Source of the DNA: Diogma glabrata
Lineage: Eukaryota; Arthropoda; Insecta; Diptera; Cylindrotomidae
Direction of reading: 5' to 3'
NCBI GenBank assembly: GCA_963693315.1
Contig: OY856188.1
Span: 162,646,002 to 162,710,001 of the forward strand
Length of the DNA stretch: 64,000 bases
A program made the position numbers and the translations under genes. The notes under the pieces are model-generated. The model searched no databases. It saw nothing but the letters and a program-made list of their open reading frames with translations, and was not told the origin of the DNA. Positions 956 to 60,349 of this stretch are shown here, in pieces; the first letter of the stretch is position 1; each line of letters starts with the position of its first letter.

Positions 956-1078
956 TTATAAACAAAACACAATCGTTCTTCTAAAAGCGGTGATGCCGCG
1001 CACCTTATAGTACGATAGAGTTTTGTCAAAATACGCACCCACTGCGTTTTTGGAAGAACGATCGTGTTTTGTTTATAA
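956..1078. mobile_element. Small inverted-repeat element (MITE-like)
   Basis: The left end TTATAAACAAAACACAATCG and the right end, ending GTGTTTTGTTTATAA, are near-perfect inverted copies over about 32 bp, flanking an inner segment of about 60 bp. The arms end in AAAAGCG on the left and CGTTTTT on the right. There is no coding capacity. No convincing target duplication was found, so the superfamily is unknown. Confidence 0.6.
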
Positions 1079-1936
1079 AACTGATTCCATCAGAAGATTA
1101 GAAGCAATACGACCGCCTTTCGTATCGGTGGCGCTCTAGTCCTTGATACAAAGAACGATAACGGTTTGAATATTGCGGTGAACTGTACTTTAGTCGGACC
1201 AAAATAATATGTAACGTAATAATTATATTATCAGATATATTTCAATTAATAGTATGCGATAAAATTGGTATGTTAGTTAAGTAAATCTCCTAAAAATTAG
1301 ACGAATTTACAAAATAACAGTGCCATGAAATTTTTATAGTGTATAATTTTATCACGATTGGATGGATTTATTGAATCGATGTATTGATAGTATCAGATCC
1401 TTGGGGGGCCAATGTAACCCCCGCTGTATTCGAGTTTTTTTCGATACTGAAAATTTTGGCTATATAATGAGCCACTGTAGCCTTTTCATCCTCTATTATT
1501 CTATTACGTTTTGATGTTGTGGTTTGACATCTCTTCGTCTATTAGATTTTCAACTTTGTGATTGTGACTGCTTCGCGCGGTGATTGAGCTGTCAAACTGC
1601 ATCTATGCAGGAAAAATTACCTTCTGTATCTTTTTCCGGAGGAATTTCATTTCTTCTTGATTATTAAAAAAAAAGGAATTAATTTATGTGTTTAAATATT
1701 CTAATAAAAAAAAAAGAATTTAAATAAATGTCTGTATTGTGTTGTCAAAACTAGAGAAATTTAAGAAAAATTAGAATAAACAAAAAAATAGAATATACAT
1801 GTTTGTGCTGTGGTTTAACAAATTTTACATGAACCAAGGCGAGATACCTAAATTCAATGTGGATTCAAATTGAACCAGAAAAAAAACCAAAATGACCGCC
1901 GGGAATCAGAAACATTAAGATAAGTAATTCAATAAT
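1079..1936. other. Low-coding AT-rich stretch
   Basis: No gene or repeat unit was recognised. It includes a short GC-richer patch around 1400-1440 and A-tracts around 1665-1720. Confidence 0.5.
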
Positions 1937-2354
1937 TTTTGGTTATATGCTTTAGTGTGCAATGCCCGTTATATAGGACAATTTTTACATAATCTGTAAC
2001 ATTAGCCGTCGTGTGATGTAAATATAATTTATTCGTGGCAATTGATATAAAATAATTTGTATGTGTTAAGTATTAATAATAATTTTTGATCATGTCCGTT
2101 ATATAGCAAAATTTTTACATAATCTGTAACATTAGCCTTCGTGTGATATAAGTATAATCTATTCGTGTTAATTGATGTAAAATAATTTATGCGTGTTAAA
2201 TATTATTAATAATTTTTGGGTTACATGCTTTGGTGTGCAATGTCCGTTATATCGTAAAATTTTTACTAAACCTGTAACATTAGCAGTCGTGTGATATAAA
2301 TATAATTTATTCGTGGTAATTGTTATAAAATAATTTATACGTGTTAACTATTAA
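1937..2354. repeat. Three tandem units of about 130-145 bp
   Basis: Three direct units begin near 1937, 2083 and 2212. Each contains CCGTTATAT, then TTTTTAC, CTGTAACATTAGC, CGTGTGAT and TTATTCGTG, and ends ATTAATAATAA or a variant. The middle unit lacks about 15 bp near its start. They are diverged by a few per cent to about 15 per cent by eye. No reading frame crosses them. Confidence 0.8.
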
Positions 2355-2489
2355 CCTCGAGGGGGTGAATGAAAATTTTCTCGTGAAGGGCGAGAAGAGT
2401 ATTAAATAAACAGATCAGGCGAGTATTAAATAAACAGATCAACTTCAAATAAATTGCAATGGTTTCAAACTCGTTGGTTTTTACTTACT

Positions 2490-2700
2490 TTATGATTACC
2501 AATTTGTTCAACGGTTATAATTCCAAATTTGTTCAACGCTTATAATTACAAAGTTATTCAACAGTTATAATTACAAATTTGAGCAACGCTTATGTTTACG
2601 AATTTATTCAACGTTTATAATTACAAATTTATTCAACGCTTATAATTACAAATTTATTCACCATTTATAATTACAAGTTTGATCAACTCTGTTCCACTAT
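2490..2700. repeat. Minisatellite, unit about 24-27 bp
   Basis: Roughly eight degenerate copies of TTCAACGCTTATAATTACAA in direct orientation. Just upstream, GAGTATTAAATAAACAGATC occurs twice in a row (about 2397-2441). Confidence 0.8.
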
Positions 2701-3176
2701 TATTAATATCAAATATTGCGGCGTAATCTTCATCGTATTCCAATATATTTGCAAAACTTGTTCAACGATCATTTACACCAATTAATACAACGACTTTTCC
2801 GCCTACTCAACTATAATTACGAAGTGATTCGACGGTCAGCTACAGACATTAATATATGATATTTTCAACTTATCCAACGATCTGCAAATTTATTTCAACG
2901 AATATTGAGACCAACCATCACAATGAATTGACAACATGCTCAACTGTAATTGCGAATTGGTTCAACTATAATTTTTTTGAATATTGTTACAGGGTATTAA
3001 CCACGATTTCAACCATATTTACCAATTGATTCAACGTTTATTTACATAAATCAACCTATGATATTTTCAACTTATTCAACGATTTGCAAACTTAAATCCA
3101 CGACCATTTATACCAATTAATACAACGGATTTCCAACCTACTCAACTATAATTTTTTTTTGGAATATTGTTACACG
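2701..3176. repeat. Degenerate higher-order repeats built on TTCAAC
   Basis: The sequence continues the same TTCAAC/CAACGAT vocabulary in longer units. CACCAATTAATACAACGA...CCTACTCAACTATAAT occurs at about 2775-2818 and again, diverged, at about 3106-3152. GATATTTTCAACTTATCCAA occurs at about 2858 and 3059. It looks like an old expansion of the adjacent minisatellite. Confidence 0.55.
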
Positions 3177-3688: not shown

Positions 3689-3739
3689 GCCAGACACCCT
3701 TAAGCTTTAACAAATTGATAAAGTTTAAGAGTGTCTGGC
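3689..3739. repeat. 21-bp hairpin
   Basis: GCCAGACACCCTTAAGCTTT and TAAAGTTTAAGAGTGTCTGG are inverted around a short loop with two mismatches in 21 pairs. A third partial copy, GTGTCTGGCAATGGG, follows near 3761. Confidence 0.6.
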
Positions 3740-8086: not shown

Positions 8087-8370
8087 ATATTAAAATGTTT
8101 CGCCAAGTGCCGACAGTCGACACAATTGAATTTAATAAAAGCATTTTTTTATAATAATAAACCAAATAAAACTTTGTATAATTTATAAAATGTGAAAAAT
8201 TTTAGATGGCAAATTTCTTCGATGAAAATGATGCCGATTCATTTTTTTTGTTTTCTAAAACAATGAAACTTTCATTAACAAGTGCATTCGGATATAATAA
8301 CACAGCGACGTAATTTAACGATATCACAGATGCTGACTAAATGCGTGGAATTCGGTTTTTGCATCACAAG

Positions 8371-9205
8371 CAGTGTTGCAAAACGTTACGCGTAACGTAA
8401 CGTCAAAACGAAATAAAGAAATTAAGTAGCGTTATTAGTAATAATTATTTTCGTAAAGTTTTAAAAATTCATTTGCGTGTCAATAACGTAAAACGTTAAG
8501 ATAACGTAAATATTTTATTTCGATTTGGATCATTTTGCAAATATTGGTTGTATAAAATCCGACTTATCTGCCCTTTTTCAATTTATGTGAACGTTTTAAC
8601 TAGAGATTTTGGTAGTTCTACAATTTTTTGATATTTGTGACAAAATAATGAGCATTTTATATAACATAAGGAAATATAGAGCAATTTCACGGAGATTCAA
8701 CAACGTTTAGACTTGACCCCTCTTAATTTTGATTATTTTTGTTTATAGATAGTCTTTTATAAATAATAAATACAAGTTCTTTTAGAATTTTTTTTTCGAC
8801 TAGGGTCTTCACAGGGTGCCCCTCAATTTTTTGTTATTTTGTGATGTGAGCGCATTTTGACGAGCGATTGTAGAAAAACTACTCAATCGATTTTCATAAA
8901 TGATATGTCGTTGAATAAGTATTAGAACAAAGTTTTTAAAAATATACACTGTTAATTTTTTGAAATAATTTTTAACGGTGTAACATAAGAAAAAAACGGT
9001 GTAACATAAGAAAAGATGGCACAACCTCTTTTTTTCCTTCTAAAATTCGTTGTGCATATGACTGTCGGGAATCAGTTTTTTTTGTTCTGAAGGAAAATTA
9101 TAGAAATGGCATTATAAACTAAGATATTTTTTTATATGTTAAATATCAAATATTTTATTATTAGATGAACTTTTTAAAATATTATAAAAATTATATATGT
9201 AGTAC
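8371..9205 (+). repeat. Left terminal inverted repeat of element A
   Basis: The outer part carries repeated AACGTAA/TTACG motifs (8385-8510). The inner part (from about 8700) pairs with 15541-16100, with landmarks TTGACCCCTC, GTGCCCCTCAATTTTTTG, CGACATATC in the paired strand, and two copies of GTGTAACATAAG at 8978 and 8999. Homology to the right arm is weak between about 8510 and 8690. Confidence 0.75.
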
Positions 9206-9725
9206 AATAAATAAAATAAATACAATTGTTAAAAATGATATACTTATTTTACAAACAGAAGTTTCTTTTGAATAGGAAAACACTTCTGCAATTATTTTCT
9301 TTGTATTAGATGGCATAAAAAAATTAGATGTTTATTTATCACTTTTAGTAATCACTTTTCACTCTTATAAAAAATTATTTGACAGTCTCGACTGCAAACA
9401 AAAAAGCCGAATAAATAACTAAATCTATTTCGGAACTTTTGACTGGAGAAGTATTATGTTATTATGGAATCATAGAGTAAAAGATTGTATTTTAACATTA
9501 CATTACAAATATTTTATTATTGAATAAACTTTTTAAAATATCATACAAATTATATATGTAGGTTAAAGAAAATAAATATAGTTATTAAAAATTATTTACT
9601 TATTTTACATTCAAAAGTTTCTTTTGAGTTGGAAAACATTTTTGCAATTATTGTCTTAGTATTTAATGGTACAAAAGAATGAAATTTTTGAGTTCCACTT
9701 ATAGTAATCGCATTTTTATATCTAT
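9150..9725. repeat. Direct duplication inside element A
   Basis: About 9153-9375 is repeated, diverged, at 9508-9725. Shared landmarks are ATTATATATGTAG, ACTTATTTTACA, AGTTTCTTTTGA and GCAATTATT. The first 100 bp of each unit also belong to the inner end of the terminal repeat, so the inner arm was duplicated before the LINE inserted. Confidence 0.65.
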
Positions 9726-9753
9726 TTTGTAATTTTTCTTTTGTTAATTGATA

Positions 9754-10770
9754 TTTTTTTTTTTTTTTTTTATTCAAAGTTAGGCATGTTTAGTGTTAAT
9801 TATAATAAATTATAAATTAACGTCTCTGAATATCCGAAGATACCATGCCAACTAGGGATAAGAATGGAATGCAAATTAGGATTCTCTGAGAAATTTATGA
9901 ACGTTAACTTTAAAGCCTTGAGGATTAAATTCATCAGGGAAAACCCAGGAAGGTAAGGCATTCCAAAGATGAGAGACTCTGTTGAAAAAGTCACGTTGGA
10001 AGGCTACAGTTCTACACCTAATTATTTGAACTGTAAAGGGATGCGCTGCTACGTTTGCTCTGGTGTGACGCGAAAGGTTTGCTGGTTTAGGTAAAATCGA
10101 TTTGATCTCTTCAGAAGCTCGTTCATCCATAATATATTTATAAAATATAGTCAAATCAGCAACATTTCTTCTGTGCTGCAAGGAATCAAGACCGTTAGTA
10201 AGACTTGGGTTACCAATGAGTTTAATAGCTCTACGCTGTACAGAATCAAGGCAGTTGAGACTACTCAAGTAAGCTCCACCCCATATGTGAGAACAGTATT
10301 CCATGCAGGGACGTATAAAAGATTTATAAACTAAAAGAAGTTGTTCGCTATCGAAAAACTTACGACATCGCCCCAAAAAACCTAACTTTTGAACAGCATT
10401 CTTAGTCAGATTAAAAATATGAGAATTCCACTTCATATTATTTTCAATCTCAACTCCTAGAAGTCTGACAGACTCATTCTCTAAAAGATTTTTGGGGCCA
10501 AACGTTAATGGAAAAGGATTGGGTGTCGTTATCCTAGAAAAATGACAAACCTGTGTTTTGCTTGTATTGAATTCAACACTGTTAGCAATACCCCAATCCA
10601 TAATTGTTTTAAGATCAGTGTTAAGGGAATCTATCAATTTTGACCTACACTCACTAAGCGCTAAGGGTGTATATAATTTAGGTGCTTCATGAGACGCATG
10701 AAGCGTGCTATCATCAGCAAAACTATGTATAGGATGAACCGTTGAGTGCAACAAATCATTAATACACTGA
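9754..10770 (-). mobile_element. 5'-truncated CR1/Jockey-like LINE (family X)
   Basis: Reads from about 10770 to an 18-base T-run (the poly(A) tail) at 9754-9771. It holds the last part of the reverse transcriptase ORF plus a short 3' UTR of about 100 bp unlike that of family Y. The truncation lies inside the reverse transcriptase palm. Confidence 0.85.
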
Positions 10771-10779
10771 GAAAAAAAC
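9876..10779 (-). pseudogene. Reverse transcriptase C-terminal part (LINE X)
   Basis: An open frame of about 300 codons is recognised as the 3' half of a CR1/Jockey-type LINE reverse transcriptase. It begins at CINDLLH, just before catalytic motif C (FADDS), and runs through the thumb-like region (VRLLGVEIENNMKW, KLGFLGRCRKFF) to the typical tail (FIRPCMEYCSHIWGGA, LDSVQRRAIKLIG, LDSLQHRRNVADL, WNALPSWVFPDEFN). It ends at a natural stop at 9876. The endonuclease and motifs A and B are absent because the copy is 5'-truncated. The frame upstream of CINDLL is flanking sequence, not protein. The long intact frame suggests a fairly recent insertion. It is not functional. Confidence 0.85.
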
Positions 10780-12032
10780 CAAAATGAAATCAAAAAAAAA
10801 CATTTTAATTCAAAAATAAATATATATGAAATCATACTAAACGTGGAAATTGTAGATTCAAAAAATTAATTTTTGATTTTAAATATCTATTTTTAAAAAA
10901 TATTTAAAGTAACTCAATTTGAAAATAAAACTGCACAGTTTTAAAATAAAAACGTATCATTTATATTTCTTAAACTGATTTTAAATGGGACATTTTTGAT
11001 TTCTGTAAAAATTTCTGCGGCATGCATTCGTTTTTATACTTATATTTTCAAAAAATAAGAACATCAAAATCGTTTTGTTTTAAATATATTTATATTATTT
11101 TTATATATTACAAAATAAATTATTATAAATTTTAGTAATAAAATTATTTCAATATATTATTAAATAGAAATAACACATAATGCAAAATCAGTTAAACTTT
11201 TAGAACCCAGCTCTTACTTCTTAGAACCCAGTGAGTGCTCCAACTGTATTTTTCTATTTTATTAGAAGGTATTTTAGTTGAAAATGTTGATGTGTTTGGA
11301 AAAACAAATCCTCTAATATCAAAATTTTTTCCTCTAACTCTAACTTTTCCTCTATTGTGACAATGCTGCTTGAAACCAAATCCACAAAAAATGGCACCAA
11401 TGATGTTTAGGTTAAAATTTGATTGAGTTCCCAAAAATGTTAATAATACGCCGCAGACTTCACTGAATAATCTCAATAATTAAGGAAAGAATAGTTACAA
11501 ATTTATTGAAAAGCGTCTTAATAATAACCTTTGAGAAAAAGAACTTGCTTCCACTCTTTCAATAACTTTTTTAATATTTAATAGAGGGATATCTGGGGGG
11601 GGGGGATAAATGAGGTTTAAATGACAAATTACTTTTAAATTATATTATTTTCACAAAAGCTAATTTTCTCCAAAACTAATGTAAATTGGCACCATCGATA
11701 ACACAATATTAAATTTTATGTCTTGGACTGTCAAAGAGTAAAGTATCATTTTAAAATCAACAAGATCAAATTTTGTTGTAAAATGTAAATTTTTAATTCA
11801 ATGGTTTTTTGGACAAATTTTTTAACTTAAGTTGGATCGTTTTCAATTTAAGGTGTTACACTATTGAATATAAGAGAAACACTTTAATTACAAAATTAAA
11901 TATTTTAGTTTTAAAATTTTCTACTTTAACTGCCGAAAATAGTTTTCAATCAAAACAATTTCAATATTGATTTTAAAATTTTTACGTTAGATTATTTAAA
12001 ACCGTAAGTTTTTTAATTTAAACATGATCTGA
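10771..12032. other. Interior of element A without a recognised gene
   Basis: AT-rich sequence. A minus-strand frame at 11192-11476 (94 codons, ending WVLRSKSWVLKV) resembles nothing I know. A nine-base G run lies near 11597. Confidence 0.4.
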
Positions 12033-14036
12033 TTAGATTATAAAGTGTGCTTTTTTTCTCAGTGTATAGATAAGAGATAGATAGATATCATTTTTATCGG
12101 CGTATCCAAAGTTCATGGTAGATTCCCATTTTAAAGCCCATTCGAAAAGTTTTTTTGGTGTGTCAATAATATCTCTGCTTCCCATACTATAACGGTGTGC
12201 AGCACGCTTCAGTGTACCACCAATCCCATCGTAAGATCCCTTTCCATGGCTGGTAGCATGAAAAATGCCATTCTGCATCAACCTAAAAGTCTTTTTTATG
12301 GTGGCATAAGTTAATTAAGTTATGTTTATTTTTGTATTGAGAAGGTGCACCGTCGTTGTTATAAATTATTTTCCTAATATTAGAATTTATATGCGTTCTG
12401 ATGAATTCAATAAGTTTTGTAATGAAAAGATCTACTGTAGTACTGTTGTGATCGTTTATATCTGGAATGAGTATAAAACTTCGGTGCTGTATATATTCAC
12501 TTGTGGCACTTTTAAAATAAATGACAAATGGATAAATAGTAGTTTGTGAATTATTATAATAATAGTCTTGAATCGCATCCTGAATTATGAAGCCGTAGTT
12601 TTCAGAAAAATCCCCTTGAACGAAGCCCTCTCCTGGTTCTAATTTTTTTTTCCTCAATGAATGTAGATTGCTGTTTTGCTATAAAGTTGTGTGGTATCAA
12701 AATTTGTAAACGGTAAATAAATTTTTTCATAAATTCTTCTACAGTTTCTATTAAAGTATCCAAATTGCATCGATCAGTGGTATTCCGTTGTTGATATTTG
12801 ACTTGAAGGATTCCTTTAACGTCAAAATCATTTAGTAATCTTTCTTCTAGTTGTTGAAGCTTTTTTGAGCATTCATTGCACTTTAAAGCATGACAATCTT
12901 CTGTTAATTCACCACATAAAACAAAGTCAATTATTGTTTTATAATTCTGGAAAGCAGCATCAGTAATCCAAGACATCTTAGAGTAAAGAATCCAATCCCG
13001 GGTACCCGTTACCCGGGTACCCGGGAAACCCGCAATTTTTCCAGCACCGAAAACCGGTTCTGAAATCAGTCCAATACTCGGTTTTTCGATTCTATATTTT
13101 TTAAATAAATTTTTATTCATTCATTAAAAAAACAACACAAGCAAATGTAACAAATAACAAAAACAACGTTTTATCTTTTTATCCTATCAAGAAGACTAGC
13201 TCTACACAGATTTTTATGCTTAAAAGGGTATATTCCATGCTTAAATTACGTTGATTTTCAACCGTGAATAAGCCAGGTGTATTATCGATCTATCTATCTT
13301 CTATCTATATTTATAAAATTGAAAGTATGTGTGTTTGTCCTTTATGCATTAATACACCATTCATCCGATCATCATGAAACTTTGGGAAGTTGTTGTGTAC
13401 CCTTGCGCATAGGTAACTGGCAATTTTTTTTTTTAAACGGAACCCCAGGACCAATTTGCCAATTTTAATTGGAACCCCAGGACCGGTAACAATGCATTAA
13501 TACCAATGAATTTAATATATGTTCGGGAACATATGTAATATTCAAAATTTTGGATCTATGGGTGTGACAACCCCGCGTACTTTAGTACCTGCTATTGGTA
13601 AATCAGTTAACGTGAGATATCGTAAACCACTGGCAATGTTAGATGTCACTTATATAAGGGGATAAGTGATATTTTAGTTGTGCTGGCGGATTTCAATCCA
13701 CGATAGCACCCTTAGTTTTAGTTATGGAATATTCTTTGTTTGACATGCTTCTAAGGTTTTGATGGACTAAGGTTTTAATGGAATTTTTAATTTTTTTATA
13801 TTTTTTTAAAGAATGGACTTTTGTGCTTGCTCGAAGAAATGAGCCTAATTTTAGCTTTGTTCCTGCAAATTTAAAAAAAAATGTGTTTTATTTTTGTTTC
13901 CTCAATCCTATCATGAAATATTGCCCTATGTCGTACATTTAACATTATTATGTGAAAGGATTTGTTATTTAGTTTTCCATTCTTTAAGAAGAATATAAAA
14001 AACAAAAAAAAATTGCGTTCATCAACGTCTTAAAAG

Positions 14037-14110
14037 CATGATGTTGTAGAACCTAGGTCTGAAAAGGTTTTTATGTGTTGTTGTGACACATATTGTGATT
14101 CCAAATATTT
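14037..14110 (+). mobile_element. LINE family Y 3' UTR scrap
   Basis: GATGTTGTAGAACCTAGGTC and TTATGTGTTGTTGTGACACA match, in plus orientation, the 3' UTR of the family Y LINEs at 22154-22710 and 44532-45220. Only about 70 bp remain. Confidence 0.55.
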
Positions 14111-14154
14111 TAAAATTGCACAAATTTTTTTTAAATTTTCGGTGAAAAAGATGA

Positions 14155-14472
14155 TGAACAATGCCATTAAAGCTACGATTTTAAATGCAAAATTCGAAGG
14201 GGAAGATGTAGTGTTGTCACGTATTCCAATGATCCCAACAGATATGGTATTTGAATTCAAACGTTTAGTTTCCAGTGCAACTCGCATTTGCAATGACGAT
14301 CAACAAAGCACAAGGACAGTTACTGCAAGTATGTGGACTAGATTTGGAGAATCCGTGCTTCTCACATGCACAACTGTATGTGGTTGACGCGTTAGGAAAA
14401 CCTTCTGATTTATTCGTGTATGCGCTAGACGTAATAACAAAAATTATGGTGTACTCACAAATATTTGAATAA
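14155..14472 (+). pseudogene. Helitron PIF1-like helicase, C-terminal end
   Basis: The translated frame gives FEGEDVVLSRIPMIPTDM and FEFKRL, then after a frameshift near 14270 [27 protein letters not shown] and [10 protein letters not shown]. These are the closing motifs of the superfamily 1 (PIF1-like) helicase of Helitron Rep/Hel proteins, where TINKAQGQ and the final LYVA/SR region belong to helicase motifs V-VI. The usual SR following LYVA is lost here ([10 protein letters not shown]). It is a dead fragment of about 105 residues of a protein normally well over 1000 residues long. Confidence 0.85.
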
Positions 14473-14769
14473 ATAAATAGAATTAAAAAGAGATTTTGAA
14501 ATTTTTTCCATATTAAAATAAATAGGTTGCAATAAAAATGACACAATGTAAATTGAATATTTTCATAACGAGTTTTCCTTATGAGAAAGCGGCAATATGC
14601 GATGGGCATAATGTTAAATAAAAAAAACTTTTACACTTTTGGCGTAAAAAATAAAATTTTGAAAGATTTTGTGAGTGATGAAGATCATCAACAGAAAACG
14701 ATGACATTTTTCAGAAATACATTATAGAAGAATTTGGTAAAGAAATTCAATTAATGATTGATGTAGACA

Positions 14770-14990
14770 CGATGGAACAGGCTTTATCATATGCTAGAAC
14801 GTTTTTATAAAGTAAAAAACAGCATTTTAAAATCCTTAATCGATCTCAATTCAACAATTTCGTTTGAAGAACATAAATGGGAGATGATTAATATTTTGGT
14901 GACAACGCGTGCACCTATAAAGTTAGCTGCGGAGCACTATGTCGCAGTGATGCAACATTAATATCAGCTGATGCAACCATGAAGGCATGA
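14770..14990 (+). pseudogene. hAT transposase fragment
   Basis: The frame starting RWNRLYHMLERFYKVKNSI and continuing EEHKWEMINIL and TTRAPIKLA matches the part of hAT transposases that begins with the conserved T.RWNS motif. A shift then gives LCRSDATLISADATMKA, also typical. In-frame stops and at least one frameshift make it non-functional. It is the only transposase trace of element C and lies in the expected place inside its ends. Confidence 0.7.
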
Positions 14991-15540
14991 TCGATAATTT
15001 GGGCAGCAATGGCAAGTTAGAAGCCAAACTCGAATGAATTTATTTCTCATTGGATTTATCAAAAATTTTTTGTTGCATAAAAGGATTTAAAAAAAAATTA
15101 AAAGGTTTTCCTAAATTATAATGTGATTTTTTGTTAAATAAAATGGATTTAAAAAAATTAAATCGTTTTTCTAAATTATAATGATTTTTTAATAGTTTTA
15201 ATTTAAACATTTTCAGAACCGGGTCCAGAACCGGGTACCCGGGTTTCAAAAAATCTAGCTCCGAAAAACCGGTTCTAAAAAATGCTTCGGTTCTGGATAC
15301 TCTATCTTAGAGTGTTGAATCATTAGTTTTATATTTTGATTTATGGTACACACCTACACATTATGAGCTCCTTGGAATAATTTTATACATTCTTGTGGTC
15401 GAAGGGACGTGAATTTAGTAAATCCTATTTTCACATCAGGAAACTTATTTTTAAACTCCACATAAGCTTCATTTAATGTACATAGCAATAAGCGCTTTTG
15501 TGGATTTATGCTGATATTGCTCATATGTTCTTTATTGTAC

Positions 15541-16258
15541 GTATATAATTTTTATAACATTTTAAAAAGTTCATTCAATAATAAAATATTTGATATTTAA
15601 CATAAAAAAAAATCTCTTAGTTTATAACGCCATTTTTAAACTTTTCCTTCAGAACAAAAAAAAACTGGTTCCCGACAGTCATATGCACAACGAATTTTAT
15701 CTTTAAAACAAAAAATAGCGCGTATCCTAAACTTTCACAAGTGATATAAAATAAGCTTCAATTGAGTTTAAAAAAAAAAAGAGGCTGTGCCATCTTTTCT
15801 TATGTTACACCGTTTTATTCTTATGTTACACCGTTAAAAATTATTTCAAAAAATTAATTGTGTATATTTTTAAAAACTTTGTTCTAATACCTATTCAACG
15901 ACATATCATTTATGAAAATCGATTGAGTAATTTTTCTACAATCGCTCGTCAAAATGCACTCACATCACAAAATAACAAAAAATTGAGGGGCACCCTGTGA
16001 AGACCCCTGGTCGAAAAAAAAAAATTCTAAAAGAACTTGTATTTATTATTTATGAAAGACTATCTATAAACAAAAAATTATCAAAATTAAAAGGGGTCAA
16101 GGCAAAATTTACCAAAAATTTGCTGAACTTGCGTGAAATTAGTCTATAATATTTTTGTGTTCCATAACGAAATAACTTACCGCCAGTACCGCCATAAATA
16201 TAATGCTATAAAAACGAAACGCATAACGTTACGGTTTTTTTTTCGTTTTGCAACACTG
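15541..16258 (-). repeat. Right terminal inverted repeat of element A
   Basis: Pairs with 8371-9205. It has two copies of CTTATGTTACACC (15799 and 15820), CGACATATCATTTATGAAAA and GAGGGGCACCCTGTGAAGAC, and ends CGTTTTGCAACACTG. The left arm has the same pair of motifs in inverse orientation. Confidence 0.75.
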
Positions 16259-16266
16259 ATCATAAG

Positions 16267-37305: not shown

Positions 37306-38079
37306 GATTTTTTGTACGAGTAAGATTCTGTATTATTTGCATAAATAAAAATACATATATTTACACGAAATAGTCAAATATTTTTTCGAAAATTATTTTA
37401 TCAAAGTAGTTTTTCGAAATAATAGTAATATAATAACTTTAGGCATTGTTATTTGAATTTTAGGCATTGTTATTTCACTTTTAGTATTGTTAGTTCAATA
37501 GGGAAAAAATGCCTGCTTTATGTATAATTTTTGAATCGCATTTTACGGTTTACTCGTACAAAAATTTAATTTTTATTTTCTGAAAGAATATTTTCTCAAA
37601 TTATTATTATATTAGTAACCTAATAGTAACATTTTTTTTAAATTATCTACCGAATTACATAACTTACATTTTCAATAAACTGAAATTAGATGCTAAATAT
37701 CTTCATACATTGTTTTGTTTTCTTTTAAAAATTTTTACGTAAATTGTAAAAGTAATTGTAAACGTATCAAAAACGAATCGTAAAACACATTTCACATCCT
37801 AGTTATCTTAAACTTAGCGCCCGTAAAATAAAAGCCCGTTGCTATATAAAACATTAGTGTATTTTTCTACTTTGCCGACCGTAAAATAATCGTCCGAAAA
37901 TAATCATAAAATTAGAACAAACAAATAAATTATTGTATGCTGTTTATAGAAAAAATAATGGCATGTTTAGTATAATTTTCAAAATGTCTAGCGAGTTTAA
38001 AAAATTCAAAAATTGATTTATACTACAATTAAGCTGTGAAATTGTGCGTAAAACGTTGTACATACACTCAGGCTCAAAG

Positions 38080-38165
38080 GAAGATTACGCCCTTGGTTCA
38101 ATAAAGCACTCGCTTCGCGTCGGGCTTCAATATGAACCGCAGGCGTAATCTTCTACTTTCAGCCC
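38080..38165. repeat. AT-armed palindrome with CG-rich core (2)
   Basis: GGAAGATTACGCCCTTGGTT...CTCGCTTCGCGTCGGG...GGCGTAATCTTC. An inverted copy lies at 38467-38565 and a direct copy at 41385-41475. Confidence 0.75.
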
Positions 38166-38313
38166 TCGATATGCAAATAACTATTCCGCACAATCGAATT
38201 GTAAAACACATTTTACATCCTAGTTATCGTGACTGAAAGTTGAACTTAACGCCCGTAAAATATAAGCCCGTTGCTATATAAAACATTAGTGTATTTTTCT
38301 ACTTTGCCGCCCG

Positions 38314-38400
38314 TAGGAATTGCAATCCCGGGATTTTTCGTATGACGAATCCCGGGATCTCGGATTCATCATGAAAAAAATCCCAGGGTTGCATTCCCTA
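38314..38400. mobile_element. 87-bp hAT MITE
   Basis: The ends are TAGGAATTGCAATCCCGGGA and, inverted, ATCCCAGGGTTGCATTCCCT+A. Perfect 8-bp duplications GCCGCCCG flank it (38306-38313 and 38401-38408). The parallel uninterrupted sequence TTTGCCGACCGTAAAATAAT is at about 37871. The inside is a second inverted pair (CCCGGGATTTTTCG / CGAATCCCGGGAT), leaving almost no loop. Confidence 0.9.
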
Positions 38401-38880
38401 GCCGCCCGTAAAATAATCGCCCGGAAAATAATCATAAAATTAAAACAAACAATAGATATTTAAATATCGAGGGCTGAAAGTAGAAGATTACGCCAGCGGT
38501 TCATATTGAAGCCCGACGCGAAGCGAGGTCTTTTATTGAACCAAGGGCGTAATCTTCCTTTCAGCCTGACTGTATGTACAACGTTTTACGCACAACTGCA
38601 CAACTTTATTGTAGTATAAATCAATTTTTGAGTTTTTTAAACTCGCTAGAAATTTTGAAAATTATGCTTAACATGCTATGATTTTCTCTATAAACTTCAT
38701 ACAATAATTTATTTGTTTGTTCTAGTTTTACGAATATTTTAAGGGTAATTATTTTACGGGCGGTAAAGTAAAAAAATATATTAATATTTCATATAGCAAC
38801 GGGATTTTATTTTTCCTACTCCTATCACAGTAAATTATAAATTACATCGCACTATCCATGACATGTAAATTGATTATTTC

Positions 38881-38972
38881 AAATAGCGTGCGGTAAGTAA
38901 AAAAAAAGCGTGCGGTAAGTAAAAAAAAGCGTGCGGTAATGGATTTTCATATATATATTACCGCACGCTTTT
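38881..38972. repeat. GCGTGCGGTAA triplet and hairpin
   Basis: GCGTGCGGTAAGTAAAAAA occurs three times in a row (about 38887, 38909, 38930), and the last copy pairs with ATTACCGCACGC at 38957 to make a hairpin. Confidence 0.8.
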
Positions 38973-39164
38973 AATAAAAAGAAAAATTTTTATTTAAAGA
39001 AAAATTTGATTTTTAAAAGTTAAATATTTCAATTCATTTTGACACAGAATAATGCAAAGCCTACCACAATTTGTAAACTATTTGCATTTAATTTATAATT
39101 AGTAGTTCATTTTTTCAAGTAATTATATGCGTTTGGGCATTAAAACAAAGTCGTAGGAAAAGTA

Positions 39165-39300
39165 TATAACAAATCTCGAGTTGTAAAGCATTTTCCATGC
39201 TCGTGAAGATACTGCACTCGACGCTACGCGTCTCGTGCGCAAAATTTTCCCTCGCATGTAAAATGCTATTTACAACTCTAGATATGTAATATACTTTGGG
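39165..39300. repeat. AT-armed palindrome with CG-rich core (3)
   Basis: Arms GTATATAACAAATCTCGAGT and its diverged inverse ending AGATATGTAATATAC; the middle reads GCACTCGACGCTACGCGTCT+CGTGC. A separate AT-armed hairpin with TTGTAAAGCATTTT/AAAATGCTATTTACAA lies within. Confidence 0.7.
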
Positions 39301-39310
39301 CAATTCCATG

Positions 39311-40804
39311 GTAACTTACGTTACATTTAGACCATTATTTCAAATTAAGAACTTTGGTAGAAACAAATATTATCATACAAATTTTATTTTTAAAGTGAAT
39401 TCTCATAATAATAATCATGAGCAAAAACATAAATATATAAATTGCGGTGTACTTATTTTTAAAAAAAATGAACAGCCAAAAATAATGTGGTAACTTACGT
39501 TACTAAAAAAGGTAATAGCTATATTTGCAATTGCCTTGAAGGTTAAAATTCTGTTCTATTAAAACAGTTCTCTGTTTGAGAGTATATATATAATTTCTTG
39601 ACATGTTTAGCAGTTTGTTTTAATAGGTTTGGAGATTTTATTTTAAAAACTACAATTTATAAAAATATTTAAATGGGTAACTTACGTTACAGTAACTTAC
39701 GTTACAAAATTCCCTTTGCAATTTTTTTTATAATTCTTAAATATAAAAAGTAATTAAGATAACTTTAATCAATAAAATAAAATTAAGCAAGTATAACATT
39801 GTTTTATTCAATCCAAAAACAATAATATAATGTAATTAATCATAATTGTACAGTAAAAATTGACTATTTAAACTTATAATGTCCTCTTTTATTGGCAAGT
39901 ACAGGTGGTTCAATTTTTTACCATGTTTTCCTTTTTATAAAAGATTTCATCTTTATTTTCTGGCCATTTTTTATATCTGATTTTCCTTTTTGTTTCTCAA
40001 AATCTTTAACTAAATAAACCCCCTCTGTTTCTTCTCCCTTTGTTCTTAAATGATGGACTAACTTAATCTTTTCAATGAGGGAAGTTTGTAAAAATGCTTT
40101 GGATAGATTGAGATTTTCGCTACGCATCTTAATATCAGCTGGGGTGATTTCTAGAACATTTATTTTAGATGGCTAGTCGTGTGCTGCAGAAACAAACTCA
40201 CTTGCATTGGTGACAATGTATTTTCGTTTTAGTACAGCATTTCGCACACTCCTTTTTATGGATCCACCAGTCCGATCAACAGGACCTTTGCCATATAAAG
40301 AGGCAAAATAATTCCAGGTTAACTTTTTTCAGTGGTGATGCTCAAGAACATGCTGAAGGCTGAAGCTATGTAACGATTTTTAAATTGGCTGCTTGGCCCA
40401 TCTGACCAAATATGTACATATTTTATTTCTTCAGGAAATTGTTTTAGTATGCAGTTTATGTAGGGTACTACGTTTCTTTGGAATGACTTAAATTGTCCGA
40501 AATCAATGCCATAGAGTGGTGCTTACCAGAATAACATGCTGACACGGCATATTAATTCTGAACAGAGGACTGGTACCTTTTAATTGGGTAGCTTACGTTG
40601 CAATCATATATTGGTAACTTACGTTACACATTTTGATTATTGCACAAAAAAACAAATAAGTAATATTTAAAAGAAAACTATTGCTGTCAGTTTAGTATAC
40701 ACCTATCAGTAAGAAAATCTGAAATGATTAACATTGTTTTTCTATATCTTATTTTCTAATAACACTGTTTACAAGTTTTAGTAACTTACGTTACATGTAA
40801 CAGT
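39311..40804. repeat. Seven copies of GTAACTTACGTTAC
   Basis: Copies lie at 39311, 39490, 39677, 39692, 40589 (GTAGCTTACGTTGC), 40615 and 40791, all in the same orientation and with irregular spacing, on both sides of the transposase-like pseudogene. The outer GTAAC/GTTAC of each copy is inverted. Clusters like this often bind a transposase near element ends; that is inference. Confidence 0.85.
39918..40560 (-). pseudogene. Transposase-like family, copy in element B
   Basis: Reading leftwards: FGQFKSFQRNVVPYINC, YVHIWSDGPSSQFKN, IASAFSMFLSI, then after a frameshift LTWNYFASLYGKGPVDRTGG, SIKRSVRNAV, and a further frame with LRTKGEETEGVYLVKDFEK to the end at 39918. SDG..SQ[FY]KN and GKG..D..GG..KR are shared with the gene of element A (12033-15556). 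The N-terminal half is missing. Stops and frameshifts make it inactive. Confidence 0.6.
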
Positions 40805-41949
40805 GTACTTTTGAAATGCATATAATTTAGTTAATTTAACTAGAAATCTTGTTTAAAAAGTGAACAATATTAACTTTAAGTGCAATAATCAATATTTATC
40901 GATTGTAACATTTATTTTAAATATAATAATGCAACTTACTACTGTTCAAAGTTTGATAATGTGATTCAGCAAAATCAAAACAAACTGATGCCAACTTCAA
41001 AGTGTTGCCAATGCTAAAAAACTAAATGCTTGAGAGAGAAATATTAAAAATATGAAACTTCTAATATTTCTAAACCAAATAATACGCAAAACAATCCCTT
41101 TACTGGATTTTGGTATTTTCACTGTTTTTCCCCACCGGCATGGAATGTCCCTATTACGGATATAAAGTTCAACTTCCAGCCACGATAACTAGGATGTAAA
41201 ATGTGTTTTACGATTCGTTTGTGCGTAAATAAATTATTGTATGAAGTTTATAGAGAAAATCATGGCATGTTGAGTATAATTTTCGAAATGTCTAGTGAGT
41301 TTAAAAAATTCAAAAATTGATCTATTCTGCAATTAAGTTGGGCAATTGTGCATAAAACGTTGTACATACACTCAGGCTCAAAGGAAGATTACGCCCTTGG
41401 TTCAATAAAAGCCCTCGCTTCGCGTCGGGCTTCAATATGTACCAGAGGCGTAATCTTCTACTTTCAGCCCTCGATATGTAAATAACTATTTTGCACGATC
41501 AGGCGATTTTGCATGTTTACTGATACGTAAATAAACATAGTAAGTTTCGTTTACAAATCACAGGTCGGTAAGTATTTACTTACAGATCATGCAAGCGGTA
41601 AGTAATTACTTACCGGTAAGAGCGACCCCAGGGTGTGAATAAAAACGATTTTTATTTAAATTATTATGTAGGGCAATTTACTAACTTTAAACTTTAAATA
41701 ATATTCTTTTAAAAATATTGCAATTAAAAGATTTAGAAGCAATTTACTTTGAAAAAATATTCGATGAAAGTTAGTTTTGCAACAAAAAACCTATAGAATA
41801 ATGATGAAACGCAGAGCTTACTATTTTGAAATGAAATTTTAAAAAATTTTCTGTAAAATATTAAAACTTTGAAATGAATTTTATTATTTAAATAATTTTA
41901 ATTGGATTTCTATGATCGTGGAAAAAATATAATAAGCATTTTGGGTATT

Positions 41950-58486: not shown

Positions 58487-60349
58487 TCAATAAAATTAGA
58501 TGCGTTTTAAAAGGTTTACAACAATAACATTGTATAGTTTTAAATACTGCTTTCCAATACCTATTCAACGACATAACACTTATGAAAAAATTGACATTAG
58601 CAAATTAAATCTAAAACGCCAATTTCAAGATAATAGCAAATTATAAATAATAGAATCTACTACATACAGCAAGAAGAAAACTTAATCAACAACGACAGAG
58701 GCCCAGTTTCCAGTTTCCACTATTTAATATTAGAAAATAAAAGCACGAGCGTCATGGTAGAAATAACCGCATTGTTAAATTTAACTTAACGGGTGATCAA
58801 ATGACTAGTTAAATTTGCTCCTTCGGTGAAATTTAACTCGAGATTTTTTGGTGCGAACAAAACCAATTTTGTAATTAAACTTGGGTTAGAGTTAACCAAG
58901 GTTTAACTTTGTGTGGAGAAATTGGGAATTAGATTAATTTTTCATTAATTAGTTTTTTAAAGTTTTTGGGAAAATACCTATTTCATAATGTTCAATTTTT
59001 GTCACCTTCCGTAACCCGTTTATAAACATTTTATTCCTTTGATTTTATTTCTGTTATTATATGTACTGTTTAAATACTATAATTTAGTTTTATTGCCATG
59101 AATAAAAATTTATGTATTGTCATTTATTAGGTTTAAAAACTATGTTAATTCTTTAGTAAGCTTAGTTTAGAAACAATTATCCCAGAGGAAGGACTCTTAA
59201 ATTTCGAAAATATTAGGATATTTTAAATAAAATTTTTGAAGTGTATAAGACGAATTGTTTTAATCTATTATCAATTATGAATATCGAATGAGTAGTTCGT
59301 ATACAATCGCTCGTCAAATTGAACTTTACGTGATAAACTATCAACGTGCAAAGTGGACGAAAAAAAAACTATTTTTATTTACTTATGTATGAATCCGGCA
59401 TAATATCAGGTTTTTTTACATGTACATTGTACAATTTCGAATTTAAAAAATATTGTAGCAGCAAATTAAATTTGATTTACATACATAGATATTTATATAT
59501 TTCAAACATTGAATAAATATCTAAGGAAGAGTACCTAGACATTTTGAGTGAAGCATCTAATTTTTAGTATTGGTGAAGTTTGATAGTGTTTGCATTCTAG
59601 CTGGGTGGTTCTGTTTACAATTTGCATATTTATAGTCTAAGAGCCAGTGACCGGCAGACTTACGGTATTTTAACAAACTCCATATTGATGCTAGGTATAG
59701 TTTTTCACCTGCCGTAGTTGAAATGGGTATTCACTATCCCCGCCGATGGTTCCTTTTGGCGTGTCCGCAAGTTAAAAAACGTAAAAATTGACTTCAAAAA
59801 CGTGATTTCAGCATGTCTGCCGTTTTAATATCTTAGAGTATACAATCTGTTTTTATTAAAAAATCCAATGGCAGACACCCAAAGAAAATAAACTATAGGG
59901 TATGATTGTTAAAATTTCTATTTTGGTTTTTTCTGCGCATGACGTCACGTAGTGAGTTGATTTATTTTCGTTTCAATGAAAAATATTAAGTCGAAAACGG
60001 TCATACATGCTTTATTTTATTTTGACAATAAAATATTTTGTTTTAAATAAAGGACAAAATTTTAATAAATTTATTTTTTTAAATACATGATATATTATGT
60101 AAATGGGAAAATATGTGAAAGCTATGTAAACTCGTATGAGAATGAGAGATATATAAAATCTGATTATTCTGATTATGAGAATACTTTTGATTTTTTAGAA
60201 ATTTTTATTATACATAATGATAATAAATTAAAATAGTAATAATATGGTTTATTTAAAGGGTTTAAAGTAAATTGACCAGAAATATAATTTAATGGACCTT
60301 ATTTAATTTTCTTTTTATGGTTGTCATGTCCAAAATTGTTTCATTTAAG
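58487..60349. other. Mostly unassigned AT-rich DNA
   Basis: CCTATTCAACGACATAACAC (about 58559) and TACAATCGCTCGTCAAATTG (about 59301) are diverged pieces of the element A terminal repeat, now about 700 bp apart, so a later insertion may lie between them. GTTAAATTTAACTTAAC..TTTAACT palindromic text occurs near 58772-58850. No gene. Confidence 0.4.

Follow-up and report, generated by a model that had tools for sequence, protein, structure and literature searches.

Repbase counts 20 superfamilies with a DDD/E transposase (PMC9587614) and files non-autonomous elements by the size of their duplications and by their terminal letters (PMC4455052). Duplications of 8 bp are usual for hAT and are also made by Zisupton (PMC12730594), Kolobok duplicates TTAA (PMC9587614), and fungal IS3EU families have a 6-bp duplication and ends of the form TAYGG (PMC12730594). 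The C/DxxH motif is described as defining for hAT (PMC9587614) and is also reported for P, MuDR, Kolobok and Dada (PMC3706591, PMC9587614). Here we analyzed a stretch of 64,000 nucleotides from the dipteran Diogma glabrata (contig OY856188.1, positions 162,646,002 to 162,710,001; hereafter the window), in which an earlier note, made from the letters alone, had recognized the same protein design inside two different elements with terminal inverted repeats (TIRs), designated A and B, and had suggested that it is a DNA transposase, perhaps of an unnamed group. Our analysis makes it highly probable that A and B are dead copies from two lineages of one animal DNA-transposon group coding for a DDD transposase. 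The identification as a DNA transposase is well supported by an RNase H-like core predicted for both types of protein, by the catalytic triad, and by element A itself.

The predicted RNase H-like core, which the earlier note had named as a point to check, was obtained for the A type as well as for the B type (AlphaFold2 models of P0013 and P0137; VIA alignments). A DDD triad is present in 54 of the 60 aligned A-type proteins and in 48 of the 50 aligned B-type proteins that have letters at these positions, and the secondary structure places the triad at the catalytic positions of the core. The distance between the second and third catalytic residues (D2 and D3) is 41 in 103 of all 112 aligned rows, and the zinc ligands consist of CxCxxH plus four C. 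The encoded protein probably starts with an N-terminal part rich in helices, followed by the zinc cluster (CxCxxH before C-C-C-C), by the RNase H-like core and finally by a beta domain at the C-terminus; Tudor_4, which would fit this last domain, was matched by 2 of 60 members (best E 0.0015). Foldseek returned no match at E<=0.001 among PDB or viral models, the best viral row being the mavirus integrase (E 1.6e-3), and a sequence profile search of PDB gave no match up to E 10. Retroviral integrases (ASV, STLV) share the order of zinc, core and C-terminal domains. They differ in having E as the third catalytic residue and HHCC as zinc ligands, whereas the present proteins have D and CxCxxH with four C, and the gene described here sits in a DNA element with TIRs. 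The IS21 IstA and Mos1 mariner transposases likewise gave no PDB profile match up to E 10, and their ends and duplications differ from those found here.

To define the family, proteins related to both types were collected. A read-through query of the A gene matched 366 proteins at E<=1 among 648 candidates, and the B query matched 89 proteins among 325 candidates; a single 131-amino-acid piece, used as a protein query, yielded one candidate and no match. The A-type alignment (A1) consists of 60 rows that were hand-picked, with longer ones favoured, from the best 120 of the 366 matches (all E<=9.3e-49), and the B-type alignment (A2) consists of 52 rows out of the 89 matches (weakest E 2.5e-3). 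Compared as profiles, A1 and A2 match with probability 100 (E 3.3e-85, 521 columns), and the gene pieces in the window proved real by tblastn, which confirms that A and B carry the same protein design. Judged by these alignments, the A type and the B type are one superfamily. The copies in the window are weakly similar to each other (best tblastn E 0.007 within the window), and in a quick tree for which every third row of the two alignments was taken (20 of the A type, 18 of the B type) the types split with support 100. In this tree the core piece from the window fell among the A rows, on a long branch and with no starred support, and an intact relative described below (L001) fell beside the B rows.

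The relatives had been regarded as an arthropod family, which is too narrow: besides Bactrocera, Psylliodes, Cyphomyrmex, Bacillus rossius and Periplaneta, the named sources include Patiria, Diadema, Styela and Paramuricea. One relative (P0043) is filed as a Proteobacteria metagenome-assembled genome (MAG) entry. The names given to the proteins are 'uncharacterized', 'hypothetical', 'unnamed' and 'Cc8L18.2-like', and the weak match P0208 is named 'HTH psq-type'. No relative was found in the viral contigs scanned, in plasmids searched with P0137, or in phages searched with P0013 or the L001 protein. Among genome contigs, the A1 profile had no match and the A2 profile had one, L001.

Element A extends from 8371 to 16258, with two nested insertions inside, as delimited by its ends, arms and flanks. 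The 15-bp TIR CAGTGTTGCAAAACG is located at 8371-8385 (plus strand) and, as an exact inverted copy, at 16244-16258 (minus strand). On the outside it is flanked by the 8-bp repeats ATCACAAG (8363-8370, plus strand) and ATCATAAG (16259-16266, plus strand), which agree at 7 of 8 positions, so that the ends and the 8-bp duplication proposed for A could both be found. On the inside follow long inverted arms, of which the left (8706-9218, plus strand) matches the right (15524-16107, minus strand) over 334 nt at 95% and a further 179 nt at 90%. Neither the TIR nor the flanking repeat settles the borders alone; an exact inverted 15-mer is in itself not rare in this AT-rich window (12 of 300 random block-pair draws, where blocks nearer than 3 kb were skipped yet still counted in the 300), and 7 of 8 identical positions were seen in 0.154% of 200,000 draws of random 8-mer pairs from the window. 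Allowing up to 3 mismatches, CAGTGTTGCAAAACG has 4 matches in the window, the two beyond the ends of A carrying 3 mismatches each. This count is not above chance (2.29 expected; 16 of 100 shuffles reach 4), and it is therefore the exactness and the position of the ends that carry weight. The CAGTG pair of A was outside the best 6 pairs of a wide TIR scan because the long arms yield pairs of equal or higher score, and what supports it as the ends of A is that it lies at the arms' outer edge. We accepted the borders because a 15-mer at this outer edge is combined with a flanking repeat. Summed without its insertions, A is about 3.2-3.3 kb long, the borders of insertion 2 being approximate. The left part of A also contains a direct duplication (9106-9359 and 9464-9715, 78%) that extends into the 3' coding piece, and a relic of the A arm is located at 58507-59344 in two pieces (58588-58507, 80%; 59344-59269, 79%) with other DNA between them.

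The transposase gene of A is preserved in pieces that all lie on the minus strand and are collinear with the residues of the relatives (15596-15300, 12982-12602, 12678-12283, 12314-12033 and 9753-9619). The most N-terminal piece found (15300-15596; tblastn with P0001 and P0007) is followed by a piece with the zinc cluster and linker (12602-12982) and by two catalytic pieces, one with D1 (GDFSENY) and D2 (DGAPSQYKN) at 12283-12678 and the other with D3 (GKGSYDGIGG) at 12033-12314, all three located by tblastn. Past the second insertion lies a post-core piece at 9592-9789, with homology for 9619-9753 and an open frame to 9592. The range first assigned to the gene, 12033-15556, was thus too narrow at both sides. 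Two frame changes fall within 12033-12678. With the 209 listed relatives as tblastn queries against the window (E<=1e-3), minus-strand matches were obtained for 206 of them at 12045-13036, for 71 at 15201-15596 and for 52 at 9595-9783; the first 50-84 residues of the relatives and the C-terminal beta domain were not found in A by tblastn. On its 5' side the preserved gene runs into the right arm (15596 versus an arm start at 15524), and on its 3' side it stops next to the left arm's inner duplicate (9592 versus 9574).

The gene remnant of B (39867-40581, minus strand), matched by 201 of the same 209 relatives, retains D2 (SDGPSSQFKN) and D3 (GKGPVD) as well as some of the C-terminus; tblastn of the window revealed no piece with D1. 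Putative inverted arms of 264 nt that match each other at 91% are located at 38451-38714 (plus strand) and 41227-41490 (minus strand). The inverted arms of the TIR element proposed at 38451-41490 are therefore present, but its border and the ownership of the arms are tentative: a further copy of the arm lies in opposite orientation at 37923-38195, and the similarity continues beyond the proposed border. For these reasons neither the ownership of the arms nor any duplication is fixed, and a gene between TIRs with a duplication is seen in element A alone. The sequences TATTTAAATA and TATGTAAATA at the pair 38467/41474 were considered as a duplication of B and rejected, the flank being near-palindromic and partly common to the third arm copy. 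Beside B we also observed a near-palindrome of two arms (37825-38813; 363 nt, 90%), which has sequence in common with the right arm of B and resembles a foldback repeat. In the space that separates the left arm from the B gene, GCGTGCGGTAA is repeated at 38880-38970, with an inverted copy.

The one intact copy available with its DNA, L001, is a contig of 4,028 bases that is assigned to a bacterial MAG, although its DNA is likely to be animal. It contains an uninterrupted B-type gene of 690 amino acids at 967-3039, with motif arrays on both sides; scanned against Pfam at E<=0.01, the product of this gene has no match. A TIR-like pair at 724-741 and 3712-3729, with AATTGC near both ends, was too weak to claim.

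Short motifs flank the genes of all three elements. The window contains six exact copies of GTAACTTACGTTAC, all at 39311-40794 on both sides of the B remnant, and a seventh at two mismatches. Four exact copies lie on the 3' side of the gene (39311-39705, plus strand), and two exact copies together with the 2-mismatch copy lie on the 5' side (40588-40794, plus strand). L001 has eight GTACGTCCAACAC-like sites, four on each side of its gene. Measured outward, the spacings in B are 15, 187 and 179 (3') and 26 and 167 (5'), and those in L001 are 21, 188 and 169 (3') and 14 and 177 (5'), leaving out an inverted site at 725. Element A has two TCTTATGTTACACCGTT copies, 21 bp apart, in the left arm (8974-9011, minus strand) and, as an inverted copy of this pair, two in the right arm (15798-15835, plus strand, again 21 bp apart); because the arms are copies of each other, the four count as one pair. 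Element A shares CTTAYGTTACAC with the B copy at 40614. GTAACGTAA occurs nine times (six copies in B, one in the left end of A, and two elsewhere, at 1211 and 63544), and TAACGTAA is enriched in the window (12 versus 4.82 expected; 1 of 100 shuffles). The best repeated 8-mers in the flanks exceeded the shuffled maxima in L001 (7 versus 6) and in B (7 versus 5), and the best 12-mers in the arms of A did so as well (4 versus a largest value of 3 in 200 shuffles), but count as one pair. From these comparisons, which are post hoc and cover three elements, we read the flanking motifs as candidate transposase-binding sites.

A possible course of transposition can be outlined on this basis. The N-terminal part of the protein may bind the short motifs near both ends and pair the ends, the DDD core would cut the ends and insert them, with a stagger of 8 bp, into target DNA, and gap repair by the host would leave the 8-bp duplication. 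Chances appear to us about evenly balanced that the group represents a new animal cut-and-paste superfamily, whose DDD transposase, with an integrase-like order of zinc, core and C-terminal domains and a near-fixed D2-D3 distance of 41, would act on motif arrays (a pair 14-26 bp apart and singles 167-188 bp further out), and whose derivatives without the gene would be classified as hAT on account of their hAT-like ends. A TIR with a duplication in L001 was not above chance, the score of 16 found there being attained in 44 of 60 mononucleotide shuffles; the inverted repeats expected around copies of the gene are thus found around the dead element A, but not around L001. Two motif tests speak against the arrays: TAACGTTA, a word related to the motifs, shows no enrichment in the window (2 versus 2.46 expected), and the best 8-mers in the arms of A (4 copies) do not exceed shuffles (mean of maxima 3.9).

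None of the 112 members of A1 and A2 matches any Pfam transposase at E<=0.1, be it a hAT domain model or, as far as the Pfam copy used includes one, a KDZ transposase model. The Pfam rows obtained at this threshold cover 15 families in one scan and 19 in the other, each with 1 to 3 members and none a transposase. Rows for T_Ag_DNA_bind and DUF723 from other scans were dropped as they were below their cut-offs. Four proteins scanned against NCBIfam gave nothing meaningful (one irrelevant row at E 0.02 for one of the four), and in openly licensed PMC papers no description of the family was found via its given name, motif strings or general terms. The suggestion of an unnamed group is supported to this extent: the family probably constitutes a group of transposases that Pfam, NCBIfam and the PMC papers searched do not name, Repbase and Dfam being outside the comparison. 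It resembles Zisupton, of the KDZ group (Kyakuja, Dileera, Zisupton), in its 8-bp duplication (PMC12730594). The C/DxxH motif that defines P, MuDR, Kolobok and Dada is present in the interval from D2 to the final residue of the triad in 2 of 60 A rows and in none of 52 B rows, and instead of the TTAA of Kolobok element A has ATCACAAG/ATCATAAG.

A serious alternative, though one we hold to be somewhat doubtful, is that this is a genuine group which already bears a name in Repbase, under a superfamily poorly covered by Pfam (such as Novosib, Academ, Sola, Zator or IS3EU). Pfam presumably lacks models for several superfamilies, in which case the Pfam scans do not exclude them; the duplication sizes of Academ, Sola and Zator, however, differ from 8 bp. 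The 20 DDD/E superfamilies held by Repbase (PMC9587614) would leave room for such a name, but the 6-bp duplication and TAYGG ends of fungal IS3EU (PMC12730594) do not fit element A, and no earlier name was found in open papers for the given name or the motif strings.

It is improbable that the ends are those of a hAT element, with the gene carried between them as a passenger. The hAT-like CAGTG ends of A point in this direction, as does Hermes, a weak Foldseek match at rank 21 (E 0.018). The 8-bp duplication, identical at 7 of 8 positions, is also what hAT usually makes (PMC12730594). However, the gene pieces of A reach into the right arm and up to the inner duplicate of the left arm, inspection by eye and scans, though not exhaustive, showed no other transposase gene in the parts of A that lie outside insertion 1, and the protein itself has a transposase fold and triad. 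The rarity of C/DxxH, the D2-D3 distance of 41 and the absence of a hAT Pfam match further set the protein apart from hAT. It is more improbable still that the RNase H core is that of a family of host genes, dead members of which came to lie in repeats by chance: some relatives are annotated as ordinary uncharacterized proteins, but the TIR and flanking repeat around A, the presence of two lineages in one 64-kb window and the uninterrupted gene with arrays in L001 argue against it.

If the elements indeed belong to a DDD transposon group, a likely role as transposases could be assigned to hundreds of proteins in the database searched, the 112 scanned being without a convincing Pfam domain, and repeats in animal genomes would be masked better. 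Elements that have CAGTG ends and 8-bp duplications but no gene, and that are at present classified as hAT from these ends, would have to be rechecked, and the family would provide a DDD enzyme similar to integrase, together with candidate binding arrays open to direct testing.

As for other features, Rfam gave nothing in the 64-kb window. Insertion 2 in the A gene (9790-12032, with approximate borders) contains a reverse transcriptase piece at 9876-10865 on the minus strand (RVT_1, E 1.1e-4, 22.4 bits, below the cut-off of 29.6). Insertion 1, which also splits this gene (12985-15303), has the ten letters ATCTTAGAGT on either side, at 12975-12984 and 15304-15313, as read by eye. Some of its pieces are presumably hAT-like or Helitron-like, with no Pfam match at E<=0.01 among the pieces scanned, and its ends are rich in GGGTACCCG.
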